The translations under genes were made by a program, and so were the position numbers. Shown here in pieces: positions 19,114 to 23,939 of a stretch of 64,000 nt of DNA. The notes beneath the pieces are model-generated. The model worked only from the letters and a program-made list of their open reading frames with translations, was not told the origin of the DNA and made no database searches. The stretch comes from Streptococcus mitis subsp. hohhotensis. Lineage in GTDB: Bacteria; Bacillota; Bacilli; Lactobacillales; Streptococcaceae. Every line of letters begins with the position of its first letter. Position 1 is the stretch's first letter. The DNA lies in contig NZ_JPFZ01000009.1 of NCBI RefSeq assembly GCF_000722775.1, positions 434,001 to 498,000 of the forward strand. Direction: 5' to 3'.

Positions 19114-19371
19114 TTAGTCTTTATTTTCGTATGGCAAGATCAAGTTCAAGATGATTCCTGTCATGGCTGATAGGGCAGTACCTGAAAGGGTAACTGGACC
19201 AAGTTTAAGGATAGCTCCTCCAAGTCCAAGGACCAACATAGCACTTGCGATGATGAGGTTACGCATTTGACTGAAGTCTACACGTTCTTTGATTAAGACT
19301 TTCAAACCGTTGCTGGCGATAACCCCATAGAGAAGGATTGACATACCACCAAGTACAGTTGACAAAGAGCC
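19114..19371 (-). pseudogene. uraA: Uracil permease (UraA/PyrP), C-terminal stub
   Basis: The frame encodes STVLGGMSILLYGVIASNG, then VLIKERVDF, MRNLIIASAML and LSGTALSAMTGIILNLILP. These are the last helices of a NCS2 uracil permease, normally about 430 residues. Only about 85 codons remain. The fragment begins right at the end of the reductase operon's terminator (19372-19395), so the 5' part was lost at that junction. Pneumococcal genomes carry a full uraA beside ffh, which fits a rearrangement here. Confidence 0.75.
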
Positions 19372-19395
19372 AAAAAAGGAACCAAAATGGTTCCT
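19372..19395 (-). terminator. Terminator of the reductase-apbE operon
   Basis: AGGAACC and GGTTCCT arms with TTTTTT on the minus strand, 11 bases past the stop at 19407. Confidence 0.8.
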
Positions 19396-19406
19396 AAAAC
19401 TATTAA

Positions 19407-20645
19407 TTAGTTACTTGCTCCAGATGTAGCGTCTGCGCCACCACCGTGACCTCCAGCATCACCTGAATCAGAAGCTCCAGATGTAGCATCTGCTCCGCCA
19501 TGTCCTCCAGCAGGAGCTGCAGCATTTCCACCAACTAGGCGTTGACCAGTTGTATTGAGGTACCAGTCAAGCCATGGTTGGAAATTAAAGATGATTTCAT
19601 TGATTCCAGCATATGAACCATCTGGATAGTACATTGCTTGGTAATTATGGGTGTTAATAACACCTTCAGGTGTTCCCGGCACAATTGTACGGACATATTC
19701 TTGATCCCCGTTACGCAATACGCCGACAACCCATTCAACGTTTTTCATTCTAGAATCTGGCAATGTACCGTGTACTGTTCCTAATCTATTTCCTGATTGA
19801 GCACGTACACGTTTACCAAACATTGTATCTGGGTCTTGGTGTGCGTTATTAAAGTACAAGAATTGATTGTTATCATCTGCAAATGTCAATTCAAATGGCA
19901 TTGCCTTCAAGAACATATCAATTTGGTTAACTGTCAAGATACCGTGGTCTAATTTAACGTAAGTATCTCCAGAAACAGCTCCAACAAGTTCGGCAGCTTT
20001 TTCTACCCATTCAGGATCATCTGGATCAACACCTTGGATGGTAGTTGCAATTGAATTTGTACAATATAAATCTTCTGGCTCAATTGGTTTTGGTTTTTTC
20101 AATTTTGAAACGACTCCCACATATTTTACAAAGTTGTCCAAGCATGTTTCAAGGAAATTAACAGTTCCTTCATTTGTGATATTTCCATTAACATCAAAAG
20201 CTTCTTTAGCTTTACCAAGAAGGAATTCGTTACCTGGAAGCGTATAGGCATTAACACCTGGAGCGTCAAGAATCTTACGAAGGTGAACTTGGGCACGAGA
20301 AGTACCTTGGTCGTAGTAAGAAGCTCCCACAATCATGACTGGTTTGTTTTCAAATGGATGAACTTCGTATGAAAGCCATTCAAGAACAGATTTTAGAGAA
20401 GCTGAGATTGTGTGGTTGTGCTCAGGAGTAGCAATAATGACACCATCAGCACGAGTAATTCTGTTATACAAGAGACGCAATTGGAAGTTTTCATCCCATT
20501 TTTCGTCTTGGTTAAACATTGGAACTTCGTCAATTTCGAGAACTTCTAATTCAAATTTGAGTTTGAAGTGACGACGGATGAATTCCAAGAGTTTACGGTT
20601 ATATGATTGATCGTAGTTTGATCCTACAAGTCCAACAAATTTCAT
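19407..20645 (-). CDS. Flavodoxin-fold NAD(P)H:FMN reductase with PAS_10 domain and C-terminal flavinylation motifs
   Basis: The protein has 412 residues. Residues 1-185 are an NADPH-dependent FMN reductase domain (GLVGSNYDQSYNRKLLEFI, TPEHNHTISASLKSVLEWLS, GASYYDQGTSRAQ). About 225-370 match a PAS_10 sensor domain (FADDNNQFLYFNN...GTVHGTLPDSR...YQAMYYPDGSYAGINEI). The tail is Gly/His/Ala-rich and contains DATSGAS twice (386-392 and 405-411), which fits the Dxx(S/T)GA(T/S) site that ApbE esterifies with FMN. The apbE gene lies two genes upstream in the same operon. I infer a cytoplasmic reductase carrying up to two covalent FMN groups at Ser392 and Ser411. There is no signal peptide. The acceptor is unknown. 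Confidence 0.85.
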   Translation of the reverse strand: MKFVGLVGSNYDQSYNRKLLEFIRRHFKLKFELEVLEIDEVPMFNQDEKWDENFQLRLLYNRITRADGVIIATPEHNHTISASLKSVLEWLSYEVHPFENKPVMIVGASYYDQGTSRAQVHLRKILDAPGVNAYTLPGNEFLLGKAKEAFDVNGNITNEGTVNFLETCLDNFVKYVGVVSKLKKPKPIEPEDLYCTNSIATTIQGVDPDDPEWVEKAAELVGAVSGDTYVKLDHGILTVNQIDMFLKAMPFELTFADDNNQFLYFNNAHQDPDTMFGKRVRAQSGNRLGTVHGTLPDSRMKNVEWVVGVLRNGDQEYVRTIVPGTPEGVINTHNYQAMYYPDGSYAGINEIIFNFQPWLDWYLNTTGQRLVGGNAAAPAGGHGGADATSGASDSGDAGGHGGGADATSGASN

Positions 20646-20663
20646 TCTTTTTGGTCTCCTATC

Positions 20664-21269
20664 TTACAAATTTTCCCAGTCAAAGTCTTCAGCATCTTTG
20701 CGAAGTAGGGCTTGTGCGTTGCGCAATTTTTCTGTGATTTTTACAAAGATACGGAAGTCGTCAAAAGTGGCATCCAGTTTTTTAATAACATCAAGATCTA
20801 CTAAATCTCCACTTGGGTTGAAGGCTTGAAGAGAATGTGAAAGCAAGAATTCATCTGGAAGGACACTTGCTTTAATTTCTGGAGCATTCAAGATTTGGCG
20901 AAGTTGCATTTGAGCACGTGATGAACCAAGCGTACCGTAAGAAGCACCAGTAATCATGATTGGTTTGTTCAAAAGTGGGTAAATACCGTATGACAACCAA
21001 GCAAGAGCGCTCATCAAAACAGCTGGGATAGAGTGGTCATACTCAGGAGTACCGATAATAACGCCATCTGCCTCTTCGATTTTAGCAGCAATTTCCAGAA
21101 TTTCAGCAGGTACTTGCTTGTCAGCTGGCTTGTTAAAGACAGGGATATCCTTGATTTCAACAAGTTCAATTTCAGCTTTGTCAGCAAAGTGTTTTTGCAT
21201 GTATTGAAGCAATTGACGGTTTGTAGAACGTTTTGAATTTGTTCCAACAATAGCAATAAGTTTTAACAT
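20664..21269 (-). CDS. NAD(P)H-dependent FMN reductase
   Basis: The 201-residue flavodoxin-fold protein has AIVGTNSKRSTNRQLLQYMQ near the start, VIIGTPEYDHSIPAVLMSALAWLS, and GASYGTLGSSRAQMQLR. It aligns well with the first domain of its downstream neighbour but has no PAS domain or flavinylation tail. Family members reduce flavins, quinones or azo compounds with NAD(P)H. Gene order apbE - this gene - large reductase, with 18 bases to the latter, indicates one operon. It may supply reduced flavin or electrons to the large protein; that is inference. Confidence 0.88.
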   Translation of the reverse strand: MLKLIAIVGTNSKRSTNRQLLQYMQKHFADKAEIELVEIKDIPVFNKPADKQVPAEILEIAAKIEEADGVIIGTPEYDHSIPAVLMSALAWLSYGIYPLLNKPIMITGASYGTLGSSRAQMQLRQILNAPEIKASVLPDEFLLSHSLQAFNPSGDLVDLDVIKKLDATFDDFRIFVKITEKLRNAQALLRKDAEDFDWENL

Positions 21270-21328
21270 GAGATTTCCTTTCTCTTTTTACATAATACGA
21301 TTTTAAAACTCCATTGAAACAGTTGTCT

Positions 21329-22252
21329 CTATAGAGTAGGGATTCCTGAAGAACAGCTTAGGTGACCTTCCTTATCAATCAGAATCGCTTCGATTCCCTC
21401 CAAACTTTCGACTTGCCAGAGGATAGAAGCAGGTCTTTCTCCAAAGAGTCGAGTTGTCCAGATTTCACCATCAACTGACTTATCAGAGATGATTGTGAGA
21501 CTAGCGAGTTCTGTTTCAACAGGATATCCTGTCTGACTGTCAAAAATGTGATGGTAATCTTTTCCATCGACTGTTAGGTGACGTTCATAAATGCCTGAAG
21601 TAACGACAGATTGATTGACAACAGGGATAGTCATTAAGTGATTTCCCCTTGGATTGGCTGGGTCTTGAATCCCGATTTGCCAAGGTTGATTCCCTCTTGC
21701 CTGATTTTTTCCAATGGTCAGGATATTCCCTCCCAGATTAATCAAAGCAGAAGTCACTCCCTCTGCTCTCAGAAATTGGGCGACCTTATCTGCACTGTAT
21801 CCTTTGGCTAAACAACCTAGATCGATCTTCATTCCTTTCTGTTTTAAAAGCACAGTAGAAGTAGAAGAATCTAACTCGATATAATGAGGATTGATTAAAG
21901 GGAGCACCGATTCAATTTCTTGAGGTTGGGCAACTTTGGCATCTGAAAAACCGATACGCCAGGTTTGAATTAAGGGACCAATACTGATGTTGAGATGGCT
22001 AGAGGGCGCTAGGCTATGCTCTAACCCAAGTGAAATCAGTTCAAACAGGTCTGGATGAACCTTGACGGGGGCTATTCCAGCTTGATGATTTATTTCCATC
22101 AACTCAGATTCTTGGCTATTGGCATTGAAGCGGTATTCTAAATCTCTGAGTAAATCAAAGGATTTCTGGAGCAAGATATCGGCTCGCTCATCCACTAATG
22201 AAATAGTGATAGTGGTTCCCATTAGGCGTTCAGAATGTGAACTAAGAGGCAA
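21329..22252 (-). CDS. apbE: FAD:protein FMN transferase (cytoplasmic ApbE)
   Basis: The protein has 307 residues, starting at a TTG (22252) with AAAGGAG eight bases upstream. ApbE signatures are MGTTITISLVDERA, MKIDLGCLAKGYSADKVA, ALINLGGNILTIG, and HHIFDSQTGYPVETELASLTII, the last bearing the metal-binding region. ApbE cleaves FAD and transfers FMN onto Thr or Ser of target proteins. Most ApbE proteins are exported lipoproteins; this one has no signal peptide or lipobox and should be cytoplasmic. The protein encoded two genes on, with two matching target motifs, is its likely substrate. Confidence 0.9.
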   Translation of the reverse strand: MPLSSHSERLMGTTITISLVDERADILLQKSFDLLRDLEYRFNANSQESELMEINHQAGIAPVKVHPDLFELISLGLEHSLAPSSHLNISIGPLIQTWRIGFSDAKVAQPQEIESVLPLINPHYIELDSSTSTVLLKQKGMKIDLGCLAKGYSADKVAQFLRAEGVTSALINLGGNILTIGKNQARGNQPWQIGIQDPANPRGNHLMTIPVVNQSVVTSGIYERHLTVDGKDYHHIFDSQTGYPVETELASLTIISDKSVDGEIWTTRLFGERPASILWQVESLEGIEAILIDKEGHLSCSSGIPTL

Positions 22253-22492
22253 GCTACCAACTCCTTTCTCTTATGAAAAGAAGGTTGAAATATAGTAAAT
22301 TTATGAAAAATGAACCCCTTACATTTTCTTTCCATGATACTAGCATACCATAAAGTCAGCGTTTTCACAAATAAAATTTGTAAAGATGTCAAGAAATATG
22401 CTCAAGAAATGAAGAAAAATTGCAAGAATCCGTGTTAAGGTACAGATTATTTACATTTTTTTACAAAAAAATCGGGAAAATCAGCTAAAGTC
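22253..22492. other. Divergent control region between apbE and nox
   Basis: There is no gene here. The minus-strand side holds weak -10-like sequences (TATATT near 22287) for the apbE operon. The nox promoter and cre lie at its right end. Confidence 0.4.
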
Positions 22493-22521
22493 TTGTAAAC
22501 GCTAACAGTAAATGTTATACT
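22493..22521 (+). promoter_or_regulatory. Promoter of nox with overlapping cre
   Basis: TTGTAA (22493-22498), 17-base spacer, TATACT (22516-22521) with a TGT extension. The 16 bases from 22493 to 22508, TTGTAAACGCTAACAG, match 15 of 16 positions of the CcpA cre consensus and cover the -35, which implies repression by CcpA. Confidence 0.7.
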
Positions 22522-22559: not shown

Positions 22560-23939
22560 ATGAGTAAAATCGTTGTAGTTGGTGCTAACCACGCTGGTAC
22601 AGCATGTATTAATACTATGTTGGATAACTTTGGAAATGAGAATGAAATCGTTGTATTTGACCAAAACTCTAACATCTCTTTCCTAGGATGTGGAATGGCC
22701 CTTTGGATCGGTGAACAAATTGACGGTGCTGAAGGCTTGTTCTATTCTGATAAAGAAAAATTGGAAGCTAAAGGTGCTAAGGTGTACATGAACTCACCAG
22801 TTCTTTCAATCGACTATGATAACAAAGTAGTTACAGCAGAAGTTGAAGGAAAAGAGCACAAAGAATCATACGAGAAATTGATTTTTGCTACAGGTTCTAC
22901 ACCAATCTTGCCACCAATCGAAGGTGTTGAAATTGTTAAAGGCAACCGCGAATTTAAAGCAACTCTTGAAAACGTACAATTCGTGAAATTGTACCAAAAT
23001 GCTGAAGAAGTTATCAATAAACTTGCTGACAAGAGCCAGCACCTCGACCGTATCGCCGTTGTTGGTGGTGGTTACATCGGTGTTGAACTTGCTGAAGCCT
23101 TTGAACGTCTTGGAAAAGAAGTTGTCCTTGTCGATATTGTTGATACTGTCTTGAACGGTTACTATGACAAAGACTTCACACAAATGATGGCGAAGAACTT
23201 GGAAGACCACAACATCCGCTTGGCGCTTGGTCAAACTGTTAAAGCAATCGAAGGTGACGGTAAAGTTGAACGCTTGATTACTGATAAAGAAACTTTCGAT
23301 GTGGACATGGTTATCCTTGCAGTTGGTTTCCGTCCAAATACAGCTCTTGCTGATGGTAAGATTGAACTCTTCCGTAACGGTGCTTTCCTTGTAGACAAGA
23401 AACAAGAAACTTCACTTCCTGGTGTATTTGCCGTTGGTGACTGTGCGACTGTTTATGACAACGCTCGTAAAGACACAAGCTACATCGCCCTTGCTTCAAA
23501 TGCTGTTCGTACTGGTATCGTTGGTGCATATAACGCATGTGGACATGAATTGGAAGGAATCGGTGTTCAAGGTTCAAATGGTATCTCAATCTACGGTCTT
23601 CACATGGTTTCAACTGGTTTGACTCTTGAAAAAGCTAAAGCTGCTGGTTACAACGCAACTGAAACAGGCTTTAACGATCTTCAAAAACCAGAATTTATGA
23701 AGCATGACAACCATGAAGTTGCCATCAAGATTGTCTTTGACAAAGATAGCCGTGAAATTCTTGGTGCGCAAATGGTCTCACGCGATTCTGCAATCAGCAT
23801 GGGAATCCATATGTTCTCTCTTGCTATCCAAGAGCATGTGACAATTGATAAATTGGCATTGACAGACCTCTTCTTCTTGCCACACTTCAACAAACCTTAC
23901 AACTACATCACAATGGCTGCACTTACAGCTGAAAAATAA
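22560..23939 (+). CDS. nox: NADH oxidase, water-forming
   Basis: The 459-residue flavoprotein belongs to the CoA-disulfide reductase/NADH oxidase class. The FAD loop is [13 protein letters not shown], the redox cysteine is Cys44 in [10 protein letters not shown], His11 is present, the NADH loop is [19 protein letters not shown], and a second FAD contact is [11 protein letters not shown]. It reduces oxygen to water in four electrons without free peroxide, regenerating NAD+ in aerobic streptococci. It is transcribed alone from a promoter with a cre-like site and is divergent from the apbE operon. Confidence 0.95.

Follow-up and report, generated by a model that had tools for sequence, protein, structure and literature searches.

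A three-gene module of Streptococcus mitis subsp. hohhotensis combines the gene for an FAD:protein FMN transferase (apbE; FAD, flavin adenine dinucleotide; FMN, flavin mononucleotide) with genes for two FMN_red proteins, the larger of which carries a PAS domain and a C-terminal tail with two predicted flavinylation sites. The module occupies positions 19407 to 22252 of the window, by which we mean the whole 64,000-nucleotide stretch that was analysed (contig NZ_JPFZ01000009.1, positions 434,001 to 498,000). Its reductase genes appear to correspond to FRedA and to a fusion of FRedB with LjPAS, proteins known from the hydrogen peroxide (H2O2)-forming flavin reductase of Lactobacillus johnsonii. 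The first-pass annotation had singled out the two tail sites; this observation is right, and its most interesting part is the link to an H2O2-forming reductase. We favour a reading, at a probability of roughly 0.55, in which the tail flavins would be tethered substrates or carriers reduced by a reductase heterodimer, and not only anchored cofactors.

The module and its candidate acceptor tail

All three genes lie on one strand, with gaps of 59 nucleotides between apbE and the gene for the 201-residue protein and of 18 nucleotides between the latter and the gene for the 412-residue protein. The open reading frames (ORFs) and coordinates were re-derived and agree with those of the first-pass annotation:

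21329..22252, minus strand: apbE, FAD:protein FMN transferase, 307 residues, TTG start (PF02424, 258.9 bits)
20664..21269, minus strand: 201-residue FMN_red protein, FRedA-like partner (Pfam FMN_red; 46% identity to the FRedA-type protein of locus L339)
19407..20645, minus strand: 412-residue FMN_red-PAS_10-tail protein, FRedB-like and LjPAS-like fusion (Pfam; identities to proteins of loci L339 and L323)
20205..20645, minus strand: FMN_red domain of the 412-residue protein, residues 1-147 (PF03358, E 7.6e-34)
19581..19922, minus strand: PAS_10 domain of the same protein, residues 242-355 (PF13596, E 3.1e-21)
19407..19550, minus strand: flexible Gly/Ala/His-rich candidate acceptor tail, residues 366-412 (orthologue tails)
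19470..19490, minus strand: predicted flavinylation site 1, DATSGAS, residues 386-392, acceptor Ser392 (motif)
19413..19433, minus strand: predicted flavinylation site 2, DATSGAS, residues 405-411, acceptor Ser411 (motif)

Pfam searches of the 412-residue protein recovered FMN_red and PAS_10 only, and neither FMN_bind nor FAD_binding_2. In sequence searches of the PDB, its FMN_red part was nearest to the chromate/quinone reductases 1rtt, 3svl (YieF) and 3u7r, and its PAS part to 2qkp, an uncharacterised protein. The presence of DATSGAS twice in the tail was confirmed, and both copies fit the ApbE acceptor motif D-x-x-[ST]-G-A-[ST] (the strict motif), in which the final Ser/Thr is the acceptor and some substitutions are partly tolerated, Gly to Ala at about 50% (PMC12052999). 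A relaxed form, D-x-x-[ST]-[GSA]-A-[ST], was also counted.

Orthologue counts rest on loci chosen among the matches listed, which yielded 243 ORFs with both domains (79 from named records and 164 from other genomes), 187 of them distinct; a non-redundant set at <85% identity comprised 67. The four best-matching named records belong to S. mitis, at 99-100% identity, in keeping with a mitis-group source. Far from being absent in most orthologues, the tail carried at least one relaxed motif in 184 of the 187 distinct proteins and at least one strict motif in 173, while the strict motif occurred beyond the tail in none of the 187. Two strict motifs per tail were the rule (123 proteins), with none in 14, one in 24, three in 21, four in 4 and six in 1. 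Two or more relaxed motifs were present in 62 of the 67 non-redundant proteins (maximum seven) and two or more strict motifs in 45. Residues D386, A391 and S392 were kept in at least 95% of the non-redundant set, and the linkers between motifs drift. From one motif start to the next, 190 of 227 intervals measured 14-21 residues, and in 175 of the 184 motif-bearing orthologues the final motif ended 1-3 residues ahead of the C-terminus. The commonest relaxed departure was Gly to Ser (53 of 411 relaxed motifs), a replacement on whose tolerance the text of PMC12052999 is silent.

That the tail is not flavinylated, the motif being a chance product of a low-complexity Gly/Ala/Ser sequence and ApbE having another target, is highly improbable. 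The tail is indeed low in complexity, and flavinylation of the 412-residue protein is a prediction; nevertheless, strict motifs number 355 in the tails of the 187 distinct orthologues, whereas 200 shuffles gave 1.45 on average, on which ground a chance motif was rejected, and two strict motifs arose in none of 20,000 shuffles of the window tail. Moreover, members of the same protein class are flavinylated in Escherichia coli (PMC11334425), and neither the strict motif nor FMN_bind pointed to another good substrate for ApbE in the genome. A tandem-DNA-repeat artefact was likewise rejected, as Tandem Repeats Finder reported nothing in 19380-19600. A metal site is thought unlikely because His is not invariant: the final 45 residues are free of it in 25 of the 187 orthologues.

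The whole 2.13-Mb genome encodes one ApbE and no FMN_bind protein. A DNA pattern for the strict motif had nine matches genome-wide, of which the two tail sites and a DYWSGAT were strict motifs within long open frames; two others were strict but lay in frames 20 and 28 codons long, and the remaining four were not motifs once translated. The DYWSGAT frame (501 codons) looks like a phage structural protein. No other convincing ApbE substrate was thus found in the genome by strict motif or FMN_bind, the relaxed motif not having been searched genome-wide. The adjacent position of apbE and its lack of an export signal, both claimed previously, were borne out, the latter by hydrophobicity only: the highest 15-residue Kyte-Doolittle mean in the first 45 residues is 0.91, without a hydrophobic segment, compared with 2.85 in a secreted-type ApbE (L304), and the maximum exceeded 1.9 in none of 151 ApbE ORFs near such reductases.

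Individual tails vary. The most motif-rich, in L224, has seven relaxed motifs, six of them strict. In L046, L012, L014 and L041, DATAGAS replaces the second DATSGAS and leaves one strict site, unlike in most S. mitis records. In L165 (genome G077), the reductase tail is cut off and apbE at the same locus is in two pieces, which reflects either joint decay or an assembly fault. An apparent 737-residue fusion in S. gordonii (L094) was rejected, its surplus length being mostly a run of unknown residues.

Kinship with known flavinylated proteins and with FRedA, FRedB and LjPAS

Huang et al. (mSystems 2024, PMC11334425) described FMN_red proteins, mostly from Firmicutes, whose C-terminal extensions carry one to two motif-like sites, and showed ApbE-dependent flavinylation of Lactococcus lactis WP_021723379.1 and L. 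taiwanensis WP_205872264.1 upon co-expression in E. coli; for the Lactococcus FMN_red tails, flavinylation requires the motif Ser/Thr. The flavinylated FMN_red class is therefore known already, and the window protein is a further predicted member, sharing with the class an FMN_red domain with an unstructured C-terminal extension carrying D-x-x-[ST]-G-A-[ST] and a co-localised apbE (21329-22252, same strand, 59-nucleotide gap). Differences are found in the number of sites, one to two as published compared with up to seven among the present orthologues, and in scope: by word search, the main text of PMC11334425 contains no PAS domain, heterodimer, H2O2 or Lactobacillus, a distinction drawn by text alone. 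Taken together, motif, conservation, apbE linkage and the published Lactococcus flavinylation make it very likely that the window tail is an ApbE acceptor tail.

Two other types of cytosolic system bear comparison. Matches to the reductase included fusions of about 810 residues with FMN_red, FMN_bind and FAD_binding_2 domains (L230, L231, L232 and L250-L255; Pfam was run on three), in which a catalytic FAD module and FMN_bind stand where the 412-residue protein has PAS and tail. Eight of these nine ORFs, several of which end at the locus edge, contain a DxxSGAS site, and in several genomes a small FMN_red gene lies beside the larger fusion. Judged by their sequences, they probably form another class of ApbE substrate in the cytosol. 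They are probably of the HcrA/HcrB hydroxycinnamate reductase type of lactobacilli, in which HcrB has this domain make-up. HcrAB is reported to be a heterodimer that needs reduced nicotinamide adenine dinucleotide (NADH) and FMN (PMC10295242). In Klebsiella pneumoniae, a signal-less cytosolic ApbE modifies a soluble fumarate reductase (PMC12052999). The window module shares with that system a soluble reductase and, by hydrophobicity, an ApbE that has neither a signal peptide nor a lipoprotein signal. The architecture of the Klebsiella substrate is presumably unlike that of the 412-residue protein.

A further counterpart comes from L. johnsonii, whose FRedA and FRedB (LJ_0548/LJ_0549) are obligate heterodimer partners that together hold two FMN sites (Valladares et al. 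2015, PMC4500961). The enzyme oxidises NADH, reduces added FMN (Michaelis constant 20 uM), binds FMN with a dissociation constant of 1.96 uM and yields H2O2 in preparations without LjPAS (PMC4500961). LjPAS itself is a PAS protein that slows the assembly of active FRedA/B in vitro and whose gene is repressed more than 3-fold under anaerobic conditions; its authors mention PAS-FMN reductase fusions in other species, and the terms covalent, flavinylat and ApbE have no occurrence in the paper's main text (PMC4500961).

Besides the 46% identity of the 201-residue protein to a FRedA-type protein, residues 1-181 of the 412-residue protein match the FRedB-type protein of L339 at 45% identity over 181 residues, and residues 191-411 are 36% identical to a free-standing PAS-tail protein of L323 over 228 residues. 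All three comparators come from one Lactobacillus-like genome, G154, in which, as in G249 and G380, each of the six cloning primers published for L. johnsonii finds a match with 0-1 mismatches; the published LjPAS reverse primer encodes SGASEY-stop. These identities and primer matches imply that the window module consists of FRedA and a FRedB::LjPAS fusion. The first-pass annotation had listed a second FMN reductase; an FMN_red gene is indeed present, and it is better read, from its similarity, as the FRedA-type heterodimer partner than as an extra enzyme.

We sampled 13 genomes, namely the members of the Lactobacillus-like genus g9 with an FMN_red match in the order-wide search described below. 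Free-standing PAS-tail proteins occur in 12 of them (L274-L285), and 11 of the 12 carry relaxed motifs, two or three in ten proteins and one in L274; L282 has none, its tail apparently running out of frame. In all 13, a tandem FMN_red pair is accompanied, at a distance of about 0.8-2 kb, by apbE in the same orientation (L330-L342). A tandem pair of non-identical FRedA and FRedB homologues, a PAS_10 protein and, in the relatives of L. johnsonii, a nearby apbE are thus shared by the two systems. They differ in that the PAS-tail protein has its own gene in the L. johnsonii system but forms one chain with the FRedB type in the window, and in gene order, the pair coming first and apbE last in g9, whereas apbE comes first in the window. 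In L339, tyrosine-phosphatase-like and MupG-like genes lie between the pair and apbE, and upstream of the pair there is a TetR-type regulator. No earlier mention of the link between LjPAS and flavinylation was found in the open-licence literature searched for PAS and flavinylation.

A proposed role of the tail flavins as tethered carriers

The three genes would encode a cytosolic NADH-dependent flavin reductase module that could work as follows. The FRedA-type protein and the FRedB-type FMN_red domain would form a heterodimer with two non-covalent FMN pockets, and ApbE would transfer FMN from FAD to Ser392 and Ser411 of the tail. NADH would reduce the pocket flavins, and these in turn the tail flavins, which would act as swinging arms in place of free FMN and hand electrons either to O2, giving superoxide or H2O2 as with the L. 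johnsonii enzyme, or to another partner. The PAS domain may position the tail on the heterodimer, and control by CcpA may couple the module and the divergent NADH oxidase gene to the carbon and redox state. The reductase chemistry has been demonstrated in L. johnsonii and the flavinylation of such tails in Lactococcus; anatomy, conservation, gene linkage and the motifs on free-standing PAS proteins are observed directly in the present data. From these we infer the heterodimer in the window organism, electron flow via the tail, the acceptor and the role of PAS. O2 as acceptor is established for the L. johnsonii enzyme alone, with free FMN (PMC4500961).

Another arrangement, which we regard as unlikely, is that the tail flavin is an anchored cofactor: FMN fixed by ApbE would fold back into the FMN_red pocket, and extra sites would be spare or raise occupancy. 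AlphaFold models of the Lactococcus FMN_red tails place them near the flavin pocket, with the motif Ser/Thr required (PMC11334425), and the merely micromolar affinity of FRedA/B for FMN is such that tethering could help (PMC4500961). Nevertheless, the tethered-substrate reading is favoured because the FRedA/B pockets fill and function without a tail (PMC4500961), because up to seven sites occur, and because the tail may be on a separate protein, as is the case in the L. johnsonii group. In 62 of the 67 non-redundant proteins there are at least two relaxed sites, more than a single pocket per chain could accommodate. The DxxSGAS sites of the ~810-residue fusions suggest a like wiring, from NADH through FMN_red and covalent FMN to an acceptor.

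Still less probable, in our judgement, is that the PAS-tail serves chiefly in redox sensing or regulation, in which a flavinylated PAS reads O2 or the redox state and slows or permits reductase assembly, as proposed for LjPAS. This would agree with the delay of complex formation by LjPAS in vitro and with the anaerobic repression of its gene (Valladares et al. 2015, PMC4500961). It would leave unexplained, however, both the several acceptor sites at the extreme C-terminus and the fusion to a catalytic subunit throughout Lactobacillales, and the main text of the LjPAS paper has neither ApbE nor covalent flavin.

Several points weigh against tethered carriers. In the models of Huang et al., the tail flavin sits close to the pocket of the reductase itself, an arrangement that fits single-site members (PMC11334425). 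LjPAS slowed, and did not help, assembly of the active enzyme, with proteins produced in E. coli and no ApbE named in the paper (PMC4500961). One of the 13 g9 genomes, G368, has fredAB and apbE yet no PAS-tail protein in a PAS_10 search. Fourteen of the 187 tails lack a strict motif and three lack any, namely L165, where the tail is cut off, and L235 and L217, where the motifs are degenerate; in S. pneumoniae 19F (L046), the second motif reads DATAGAS. The covalent flavin on the 412-residue protein is itself predicted, albeit very likely. Finally, the AlphaFold2 model of this protein, built with 24 close streptococcal sequences, has a mean pLDDT (predicted local distance difference test) of 42.1, a predicted template modelling score (pTM) of 0.40 and a pLDDT below 50 over residues 181-412, values too low for it to place the tail.

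More broadly, and tentatively, since we hold it at somewhat less than even odds, the H2O2-forming NADH:flavin reductases of lactic acid bacteria may act in the cell not on free FMN but on a poly-flavinylated PAS-tail protein (LjPAS, fused or free, with one to seven FMNs as swinging arms), in which case ApbE would be an unrecognised essential part of the flavin-reductase O2 metabolism of lactobacilli and streptococci. Few roles are known for flavinylation in the cytosol, and the surveys seen in the literature concentrate on extracytosolic systems. Tying ApbE to a FRedA/FRedB-LjPAS reductase would give this modification, found across Lactobacillales, a testable job and may explain how a free-FMN reductase functions in cells. 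LjPAS, hitherto described as a sensor, would become a candidate for carrying electrons when lactobacilli form H2O2.

Distribution, regulation and neighbouring features

The reductase is present in 121 of 147 Streptococcus genomes (best E <1e-100), and is broken or partial in seven (G014, G015, G064, G077, G109, G125 and G134). ApbE was found in 144 of the 147, and the three genomes without it (G041, G053 and G055) all lack the reductase, kinship being ignored in this count. Since 23 of the 26 reductase-less genomes retain ApbE, it has other uses there. Matches at E 1e-30, which include shorter FMN_red proteins and the ~810-residue fusions, came from 158 of the 295 genomes sampled across the order and from 49 of its 74 sampled genera; among the matches listed, full-length ones span seven families (f1-f4, f6, f8 and f9). 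In a phylum sample, 2 of 398 genomes matched at E 1e-40, both of them Streptococcus, with Lactobacillales accounting for 3 of the 22 rows listed. In 183 of the 187 distinct orthologues, the gene immediately upstream of the fusion is that for the 201-residue protein, and apbE lies within 1.5 kb upstream in at least 146, several of the fetched stretches ending early. An ApbE of any type was found in each of 34 genomes chosen mainly for the lack of an apbE next to the gene in the stretch retrieved. The architecture is thus a standard part of Lactobacillales and no rarity, and the first-pass annotation's description of it as unusual did not hold, the class with one to two sites having moreover been published in 2024.

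The surroundings of the module contain the following features:

22354..22367, minus strand: site resembling a catabolite-responsive element (cre; CcpA), upstream of apbE (core pattern)
22493..22507, plus strand: cre-like site overlapping a promoter-like site of nox (core pattern)
22560..23939, plus strand: nox, gene for an H2O-forming NADH oxidase, divergent from the module and provided with a cre-like site of its own (NF046103, 761.8 bits, cut-off 600)
19377..19395, minus strand: terminator-like hairpin just 3' of the 412-residue gene (consensus match only; 3 found in the region, 2.4 expected)

The cre core pattern occurs in 67 of 82 distinct apbE-nox intergenic regions on the apbE strand and in 79 of 82 on the nox strand, compared with 0.3-0.4% of shuffles, a control of plain shuffles of related sequences that overstates significance, so that the figures are descriptive. 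Within the window, the pattern is only mildly above chance (6 matches against 2.2).

Published data sets contain related genes, SMU.1089/1090 of S. mutans and SPD_1301/1302 of pneumococcus being equated with the 201- and 412-residue genes by order and annotation only. SMU.1088-1090 show positive values (1.7) in a comparison of wild type with a ccpA mutant, which we read as higher expression in the mutant; CcpA is predicted to target SMU.1088 (PMC3610829). SPD_1301-1302 shift jointly (-2.2) in a study of a galactose regulator (PMC5327383). In S. agalactiae, apbE and two FMN reductase genes co-vary with temperature at the RNA level (PMC6224512), and the SMU_1090 protein increases with aeration and heat and decreases with vancomycin (PMC5656683). 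SMU_1089 and SMU_1406c, annotated as NADPH-dependent FMN reductases (NADPH, the phosphorylated form of NADH), appear in a table of S. mutans genes affecting a LytTR regulatory system (PMC6193735); a link between FMN reductases and bacteriocin regulation is possible. Downstream of the module, an 83-residue ORF (19114-19365, minus strand) matched only the C-terminal end of uracil permease and is a probable remnant of such a gene.

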